Below, piece by piece: positions 2,861 to 3,605 of a stretch of 64,000 nt of DNA. The notes beneath the pieces are model-generated. The model was not told where the DNA came from. It was given only the letters and a program-made list of their open reading frames with translations, and searched no databases. The stretch lies in assembly GCA_027065695.1 (NCBI GenBank), contig JAMONP010000075.1:1-64000 (forward strand), read 5' to 3'. The translations under genes were made by a program, and so were the position numbers. The DNA is from Desulfuromonadales bacterium (GTDB lineage: Bacteria > Desulfobacterota > Desulfuromonadia > Desulfuromonadales > BM103). Numbering within the stretch: the stretch's first letter is position 1; each line of letters starts with the position of its first letter.

Positions 2861-2874
2861 TTTTTGATTGCCAC

Positions 2875-2902
2875 TTGACAATTCTGACCGAAGAGGTAAT
2901 AT
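2875..2902 (+). promoter_or_regulatory. sigma-70-type promoter for candidate sRNA
   Basis: TTGACA at 2875-2880 and TAATAT at 2897-2902 are separated by 16 bases. The only downstream unit before a strong terminator is about 90 bases long. Confidence 0.55.
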
Positions 2903-2908
2903 ATAATC

Positions 2909-2999
2909 AACAGAACATGCTTCTTCATGTTCTCCTCCTAAGAAAAAGATAAAAACCCGTTGCCCCACAGTTCACCCTCCTGGCTGTGGGGCTTTTTTT
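2909..2999 (+). ncRNA. candidate small RNA with CCUCC loops
   Basis: A promoter-like sequence lies just upstream. The predicted ~90-nt transcript would carry a hairpin with arms GAACATG and CATGTTC, then an unpaired CUCCUCC stretch, then a terminator stem (2962-2970 with 2984-2992) whose loop again contains CCUCC, followed by seven T residues. Exposed CCUCC motifs are typical of sRNAs that pair with ribosome-binding sites. No coding frame explains the layout. I do not recognise a named family; an untranslated leader of the cytochrome gene is an alternative, but the terminator argues against it. Confidence 0.5.
2962..2999 (+). terminator. strong intrinsic terminator
   Basis: A perfect 9-bp stem GCCCCACAG/CTGTGGGGC with a 13-base loop, followed by TTTTTTT. 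It lies 90 bases upstream of the cytochrome gene and ends the candidate sRNA. Confidence 0.9.
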
Positions 3000-3089
3000 C
3001 TAAAATACAAGGTTCTGAAAAACCCGTATGCCCAACAGTTGGGACAACCAAGGCCGATTCATCTGTCCAACCTATTCTGGAGATAAACT

Positions 3090-3605
3090 ATGTCCATGCG
3101 AAAAACAACTATCCTGATTTTTACCGCAATTTTGTTCTCAATCGCTCCCCTTGCCGTTGCTTCTGAGCAAGAACATCACCAAAAACCAGCTACAGATAAT
3201 GACATTCAGGTGTCGCCTGATCTTAAAAAACTACTTAATCAGGAGATGTCGGCAATTCAGGATGGTATGATGGCTCTGATTCCGGCAATGTCATCCGGGA
3301 ACTGGAAAGAGGTTGCCAGTATAGGCAAGAACATCAAGGCCAGTTTCATAATGAAGCAGAAACTTACCAAAGCCCAGAAAGAGGAATTGCAGCGGGTTTT
3401 GCCGCCGCGTTTTATTGAGATGGATCAGGATTTCCATAAATCATCCGGGATGTTGGCGCATGCGGCAGAAATGAAAAATGCCGATGTTATGAACTTCTAT
3501 TTTTCCAAACTCAATCAGGCTTGCGTTTCCTGTCATTCAAAGTTTGCTGCAAATCGTTTTCCGGGACTGGCTATGACCGCAGATGGAGCTGACCATCACA
3601 ACTAA
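3090..3605 (+). CDS. periplasmic monohaem cytochrome c'-like protein
   Basis: A 171-residue protein with a signal peptide (cleavage after about residue 24, ...LAVAS) and one haem-binding motif CVSCH near residue 150. The position of CXXCH at the C-terminal end of a helical body is that of the cytochrome c' (four-helix) family. The ATG at 3090 has GGAG seven bases upstream. It should be exported and haem-loaded in the periplasm, with a role in electron transfer or gas/stress binding that cannot be resolved from sequence. It appears monocistronic and is preceded by a terminator. Confidence 0.85.
   Translation: MSMRKTTILIFTAILFSIAPLAVASEQEHHQKPATDNDIQVSPDLKKLLNQEMSAIQDGMMALIPAMSSGNWKEVASIGKNIKASFIMKQKLTKAQKEELQRVLPPRFIEMDQDFHKSSGMLAHAAEMKNADVMNFYFSKLNQACVSCHSKFAANRFPGLAMTADGADHHN

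Follow-up and report, generated by a model that had tools for sequence, protein, structure and literature searches.

The csRNAs of Streptococcus pneumoniae are five similar siblings of 87–151 nt under CiaR and, as described in the available part of the source, carry stretches able to pair with ribosome sites and AUG and act additively (PMC4507080). In the excerpted account of Caulobacter SisA-D/aR8, four siblings share an anti-Shine-Dalgarno-like 10-mer and have many mRNA targets (PMC12559287). The ar14/NfeR1 RNAs of Alphaproteobacteria have been linked, in the portion of text available, to cuckoo RNAs (PMC10746234), and atoC RNA (RF01733) is given as a delta-proteobacterial motif in Table 1 of an article available in part (PMC2864571). 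For Geobacter soli, the accessible text reports 30 differentially expressed sRNA candidates that respond to the electron acceptor, and cites earlier Geobacter sRNA work (PMC6013743). Within the titles and abstract openings that formed our view of the literature, with subscription journals mostly outside it, no multi-copy anti-Shine-Dalgarno family is described for Desulfuromonadales.

Here we analyse a 64,000-nt stretch (contig C75, bases 1–64000; hereafter the window) of a 3.39 Mb Desulfuromonadales genome, in which bases 2875–2999 appear to encode a real small regulatory RNA that belongs to an uncatalogued family of this order. An initial annotation had read from these bases a TTGACA-N16-TAATAT promoter, a hairpin, a CCUCC motif and a terminator with a second CCUCC in its loop. 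The two promoter elements with their 16-base spacer, the hairpin and the terminator are all present (Table 1), and the setting it gave is also right: the locus lies between an interspersed repeat (2800–2858) and a cytochrome c′-like gene (3090–3605). The repeat recurs at 1752–1810 and in at least 38 further places in the genome, a lower bound from scoring 40 of 76 candidates. The gene product matches PF01322 at E 3.6e-4, below Pfam’s cut-off, and its translation contains a CVSCH motif. Comparative evidence lends good support to a small RNA that stands alone and exposes conserved CCUCC motifs, in line with the earlier proposal, and adds to it a multi-copy family, a further invariant promoter element and a core that matches a start codon and lysine codons.

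Table 1. Features of the predicted small-RNA locus, in window coordinates.
Feature	Position	Strand	Basis
-35 element TTGACA	2875..2880	+	Kept in 63/64 copies
Putative operator TNAC-N7-GTNA, between and overlapping the -35/-10 spacing	2885..2899	+	Invariant bases, pattern search
-10 element TAATAT	2897..2902	+	Sequence, promoter scan, alignment
Predicted small RNA, ~90 nt	2910..2999	+	Start inferred from -10, end from T-run; fold and model R1
Hairpin 1, UUCUUC in loop region	2912..2933	+	4/7 counted pairs changed on both sides; 91.4% of cells paired
Anti-translation-start core	2920..2940	+	Reverse complement TAGGAGG-AGAAC-ATG-AAG-AAG; anti-Shine-Dalgarno, anti-AUG (2926–2928), anti-Lys
Linker CCUCC (anti-Shine-Dalgarno)	2934..2938	+	Mean unpaired probability 0.87 (minimum 0.34) in the 59/63 copies having it
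Intrinsic terminator hairpin	2962..2992	+	99.1% of cells paired; 4/9 pairs changed on both sides
Terminator-loop CCUCC	2976..2980	+	Mean unpaired probability 0.99 in the 51/63 copies having it
Terminator T-run	2993..2999	+	Sequence

Relatives of the locus are numerous. In a DNA search of 98 genomes, with at most eight candidates scored per genome, many members of the window’s taxonomic family proved to hold several full-length relatives each, the matches typically running from query base 13–14 to 138, that is, window 2874–2999. Across 64 full-length copies the conserved block likewise extends from TTGACA to the T-run and the flanks mostly differ. A profile search of the fetched loci returned 76 matches, some partial and one a duplicate. 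Alignment A1 holds 63 of 65 rows, leaving out L031, which has no linker, and a truncated copy (L070:3403-3458); counts over 64 copies include these two and leave out L069, which lacks its first base, and L010 was dropped as a duplicate of the window copy.

The two predicted hairpins are supported by compensatory changes. Folding of 2910–3000 gave -29.5 kcal/mol (z -4.9), which none of 200 shuffles equalled. Over the 63 aligned copies, counted as 60 distinct rows, 95.8% of cells in the two helices are paired and 8 of 16 pairs show changes on both sides. None of 500 shuffles, which preserve column make-up but not the relatedness of the copies, scored as high on any of five measures, and structures slid along the alignment were 37.9–50.7% paired. 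Left unaided, RNAalifold kept the terminator and not hairpin 1; the pairs of hairpin 1 were named by hand for the covariation count, and the structure in covariance model R1 consists of the terminator pairs only. The terminator stem (2962–2970 with 2984–2992) was not listed by a simple terminator scan because its loop exceeds the length that the scan allows.

Conservation of the CCUCC loops in relatives, on which the initial annotation had staked its proposal, is borne out: both exact motifs occur in 47 of 64 copies, the linker motif alone in 12, the loop motif alone in 4 and neither in 1, so that the exact loop motif is missing from 13 copies and the exact linker motif from 5. The second copy in the window’s own genome has lost its linker CCUCC. 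In the window copy the terminator-loop CCUCC is unpaired with a probability of 0.98. The earlier description of an unpaired CUCCUCC is accurate in part: its first CU closes hairpin 1, but the seven bases have a mean unpaired probability of 0.70. UUCUUC, present in 49 of 63 copies, is largely open in single-copy folds (mean 0.74), and the AU of a neighbouring CAU is mostly paired (mean unpaired 0.24; 54/63 copies).

At the level of sequence, the conserved core is the reverse complement of an ideal translation start, AGGAGG-spacer-AUG-AAG-AA. CAU stands 4–8 nt before the linker CCUCC in 55 of 64 copies, at exactly 6 nt in 36, and CAT is the commonest trinucleotide at that place (55 of the 60 copies with a linker motif). 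Shine-Dalgarno sequences in the window precede their starts by 4–11 nt with a mode of 7 (42 of 50 predicted genes have a recognisable one), a comparison that is favoured because the gene-start script partly used a Shine-Dalgarno score. The 5′ arm CAT that pairs with CAU has changed in 25 of 63 copies, 20 of which still have the 3′ CAU; the 3′ CAU has changed in 6 of 63, only one of which retains the 5′ CAT. Because the 3′ CAU is retained despite loss of the 5′ arm, it is not kept for the stem alone, and its retention seems to serve pairing with another molecule.

The promoter is among the most constant parts of the family. On its own, the match in the window is not above chance (4 in 2 kb, against 2.7 expected in shuffles); we accept it because TTGACA is conserved across copies, with TTGGCA as the one exception among 64, and because the DNA matches in relatives span the -35 element to the T-run. 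Numbered from TTGACA, T11, A13 and C14 in the spacer and G22 just before the -10 element are invariant in 64/64 copies. A pattern combining the promoter and this element gave 52 matches in nine genomes, against one for the reversed pattern, and 47 of the 52 sit at a family copy, one of which (G010:C246) is a decayed copy of 31 bits. The other five matches include a decayed family copy (L200), a site near two small ORFs (L196), one preceding what we take to be an S12-like gene (L197), one inside a presumably cytochrome-like ORF (L199) and a further CCUCC-loop RNA (L198); no regulator gene was found at these five loci. The RNA at L198, near base 1942, is a very short candidate of a third type, with the same promoter and element, one hairpin with the loop CUCCCUCCUGA and a T-run.

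From the invariant bases we infer that TNAC-N7-GTNA is the site of a shared regulator; its right half overlaps the -10 element, which means that the promoter itself accounts for some of the conservation there. The element resembles an IscR box. IscR-type control was set aside after inspection by eye found no such element upstream of the genome’s four best Rrf2 regulators, which is not a disproof.

The covariance search of related genomes that had been suggested for this locus matches all 22 sampled genomes of the window’s taxonomic family. The window copy scores 98.7 bits against R1 (E 4.5e-18 in its own genome; R1 was trained on 63 sequences that include this copy). Promoter-complete copies occur in 17 of the 22 genomes (G000–G014, G017 and G018); families f5 and f17 hold such copies as well. 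Of nine matches checked in the remaining five genomes of the window’s family (G015, G016, G019, G020 and G021), none is preceded by a TTGACA promoter, and five have the module of a related RNA, of TTGTGGCAG type. The window’s own genome has two copies at E ≤ 0.001, the next match lying at E 0.3. With up to 150 candidates scored in each of six genomes, we obtained 29, 10, 31, 13, 16 and 9 matches at E ≤ 0.1; at E ≤ 0.001 there are 21 copies in G001 and 24 in G006, some weaker, more distant matches included. Among members of one genus, copy number ranges from 2 to 24. Order-wide, at least 58 of 136 genomes match R1 at E ≤ 0.001, the 22 of the window’s family among them, a lower bound set by strict filters and 32 scored candidates per genome. 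A phylum sample of 297 genomes yielded five matching genomes, three of them within the order, in a stricter search that missed G048, which the order-wide search had matched. Outside the order, one match is weak (G376) and one strong (G178, 91 bits); the latter carries the same promoter and may reflect transfer or contamination.

Comparative sequence evidence shows the family, its structure, its conservation and the shared promoter; that the RNAs are made, bind mRNA and Hfq, add up in effect, and have particular targets and a regulator is what we propose. We consider it likely that these ~90-nt RNAs are trans-acting siblings that block ribosome entry at the Shine-Dalgarno sequence and start codon, and that they share a promoter with a probable operator. 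Each full copy would be transcribed from its own sigma-70-type promoter with the shared, probably regulator-bound element, giving an RNA with a 5′ hairpin, an exposed CCUCC in the linker and an intrinsic terminator with a second CCUCC in its loop. CCUCC would pair with the Shine-Dalgarno sequence of an mRNA, and opening of hairpin 1 would free CAU for AUG and UUCUUC for AAG-AA codons, keeping the 30S subunit off the mRNA start. Hfq, which the genome encodes, would probably assist at the U-tail. The effects of the copies would add up to a single dose, which one regulator would switch.

Pairing energies are compatible with such action and single out no mRNA. The core forms duplexes of -12.5 kcal/mol on average with 50 predicted starts in the window, against -7.7 for random stretches. 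Its anti-Shine-Dalgarno half supplies most of this gain (-8.0 against -4.8 kcal/mol), whereas the anti-AUG half is only slightly ahead of random stretches (-4.7 against -4.1). The most stable duplex reaches -21.6 kcal/mol both among starts and among random stretches. Favourable energies at starts are expected of any CCUCC RNA. As the AU of CAU is mostly paired, anti-AUG pairing requires the -7.5 kcal/mol hairpin 1 to open. No specific target was prominent among the 50 window starts, and the start of the adjoining cytochrome gene pairs weakly with the core (-7.7 kcal/mol). Across seven genomes, a near-perfect target pattern (AGGAGGTAGAACATGAAGAA, up to three mismatches) had 49 matches against one for the reversed pattern, many of them family copies. 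Ten loci inspected comprised three family copies, two without a real frame and five plausible starts, by eye those of an Fe-S protein and of lipoprotein-like, binding-protein-like and outer-membrane-like products. We do not take these matches as specific targets, because the plausible starts are no more than a Met-Lys start predicts. Neighbouring genes were likewise set aside as targets: the largest groups of similar neighbouring ORFs have only seven and five members, the latter an oxidoreductase-like gene beside copies in five genomes.

The rival that survives best, though we think it unlikely, is a selfish dispersed repeat, a unit that spreads within a short interspersed element and whose RNA has little or no cellular role. 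In genus g1 the predicted RNA gene is indeed often inside a larger dispersed unit: 16 of the 64 copies have upstream sequence in common with seven or more others, over as much as ~135 bp and including a hairpin like a tRNA T-arm, ~80–110 bp downstream are common to many copies, and the spread of copy number inside one genus would suit such an origin. In other genera, however, flanks are shared only in a few pairs or trios, largely at orthologous loci, while the block from -35 to T-run is kept; the helices covary and the motifs are retained. No open frame of more than 172 codons crosses any of the 64 copies, which gives no sign of insertion into long genes, the copies have no match in plasmid or phage collections, and the terminator pattern is absent from viral contigs. 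The window copy itself is without the flank shared in genus g1 but adjoins a different repeat. Some copies share neighbours across species over ~2 kb (for example, L015 and L049).

In genus g1 the flanks of many copies (L057, L046, L051, L058 and others) contain, on the upstream side, the T-arm-like hairpin GGCCACCAGGGTTCGATCCTTGGTGGCC and, on the downstream side, a TATAAGTCAGGGTCAGTAAGAATTT..GCATTT repeat, and look like a short dispersed element. In 36 loci ARAGORN detected a single tRNA, which lies over 2 kb away from the copy at its locus, and tRNA genes were therefore rejected as sites of insertion.

Less probable still, the RNA might be a sponge that titrates a binder of pyrimidine-rich RNA, whether a protein or another sRNA, instead of acting at mRNA starts. 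Exposed CCUCC and UUCUUC in repeated form, together with the high copy number, would fit that role, but the distance from CAU to CCUCC resembles that of real ribosome sites.

We regard as very improbable a role in cis, with the locus serving the gene downstream of it as a leader or attenuator and perhaps encoding a tiny peptide, MLLHVLLLRKR. The window copy does have an in-frame ATG..TAA and lies 91 bp upstream of the same-strand cytochrome gene; yet neighbouring ORFs vary between copies and the downstream ORF is often on the opposite strand. The plus-strand ORF was rejected because its start codon is ATG in just 10 of 64 copies, with ATA in 30. A minus-strand gene for a small peptide (AGGAGG-AGAAC-ATG-AAG-AAG...: MKKHVLLIIYYLF...), which would make the plus-strand signals a coincidence, is already disfavoured and scarcely credible: the window copy has a good minus-strand ribosome site and start, but the reading frame of this MKK peptide is not conserved (54 copies with the start split 28/17/9 by phase to the far end, and 25 have an internal stop), and the conserved promoter and T-run fit the plus strand only.

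Other RNAs of the order have CCUCC in terminator loops. A second, longer type (L033, L035, L037, L038, L112, L189, L211, L215 and others) combines an ACCATCRAAGG..TTGTGGCAGGC module with an CTTCTTCA-ACCTCC core and a CCTCC-loop terminator, preceded at several loci by another conserved box (CCACGTATATTTT...), different from that of the window’s family of RNAs. None of eight loci, the majority of this type, matched Rfam at E ≤ 1. In family f8 (L190, L191, L195, L205 and L206), a TTGACA promoter with TNAC-N7-GTNA precedes a longer RNA with TTGTGGCAGGC and an CCCCCTCCT terminator loop; RNAs behind the same promoter element suggest one regulator for several CCUCC-loop RNAs.

Read as translation-start-blocking siblings, these RNAs would together act on translation starts generally, as a regulator encoded in multiple copies; the 2 to 24 copies in one genus would be a natural series on why sibling sRNAs are kept, and the shared promoter element a handle on the regulator. 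Since the core mirrors a translation start, the RNA could switch protein synthesis off. More tentatively, it is possible that the order carries an exceptional expansion of sibling sRNAs, with as many as about two dozen copies under one operator. By mirroring the consensus start of Shine-Dalgarno sequence, spacer, AUG and lysine codons, the family would brake, in a dose-dependent way, those mRNAs that have strong starts and Met-Lys-Lys leaders, a good many of which encode exported proteins or cytochromes, and it would be part of a wider co-regulated group of RNAs in the order whose terminator loops contain CCUCC.

The window has no match at or above the threshold of any Rfam family; LhrC, ar14 and atoC appear below threshold. 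LhrC of Listeria comprises multi-copy, C-rich sibling RNAs whose motif is UCCC, not CCUCC; its host belongs to a different phylum, and its model (RF00616) aligns weakly and at full length with the window copy (31.8 bits, E 0.0016 in a 141-base search; threshold 110). The ar14 model (RF02344) scores 21.4 bits against a threshold of 58.8. As described in the available text, ar14 is likewise a stand-alone RNA with CCUCC-type anti-Shine-Dalgarno motifs unpaired (PMC10746234), but it has three hairpins, each with CCUCCUCCC. The window RNA lacks that arrangement: it has two hairpins, with the motif in the linker and terminator loop, and CAU in addition.

atoC RNA comes from the same order; in most of 29 sequences compared (of the 30 loci L220–L249, L242 being left out), the start lies at or close to a -10-like GGTATAATA and the end is formed by a CCCUCCU-loop terminator. 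It differs in hairpin 1, is without the CTTCTTCAT core and mostly has one match per genome; the window copy scores 19.5 bits against RF01733 (threshold 50). Among 136 genomes of the order, 79 have RF01733 matches at E ≤ 0.01, with nine above Rfam’s threshold. Rfam classes atoC RNA as cis-regulatory; judged by its -10-like start and CCCUCCU-loop intrinsic terminator, it looks like a stand-alone sRNA.

Among sibling families, SisA-D are, in the available text, without a conserved promoter motif (PMC12559287), whereas the promoter is highly conserved here. The G. soli sRNAs are given, in the text at hand, by position only and show that such RNAs exist in a related genus (PMC6013743). Two dozen copies look unusual beside the sibling numbers that the accessible literature gives (five csRNAs, four SisA-D and up to five Qrr), a judgement based on those numbers rather than on a survey. 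With the csRNAs, taken as a functional class rather than a family by descent, these RNAs share the presence of at least two similar RNAs in a genome and stretches complementary to ribosome sites and AUG (55 of 64 copies); the promoter element common to the copies may mark a common regulator. This likeness is drawn from descriptions, and the csRNAs differ in having five copies, another phylum and CiaR as regulator. Because the thresholds of the nearest Rfam candidates are missed, we file these RNAs as a new family of a kind already known, to which the csRNAs are closest in working principle, ar14 in motif, and atoC RNA in taxon and terminator loop.
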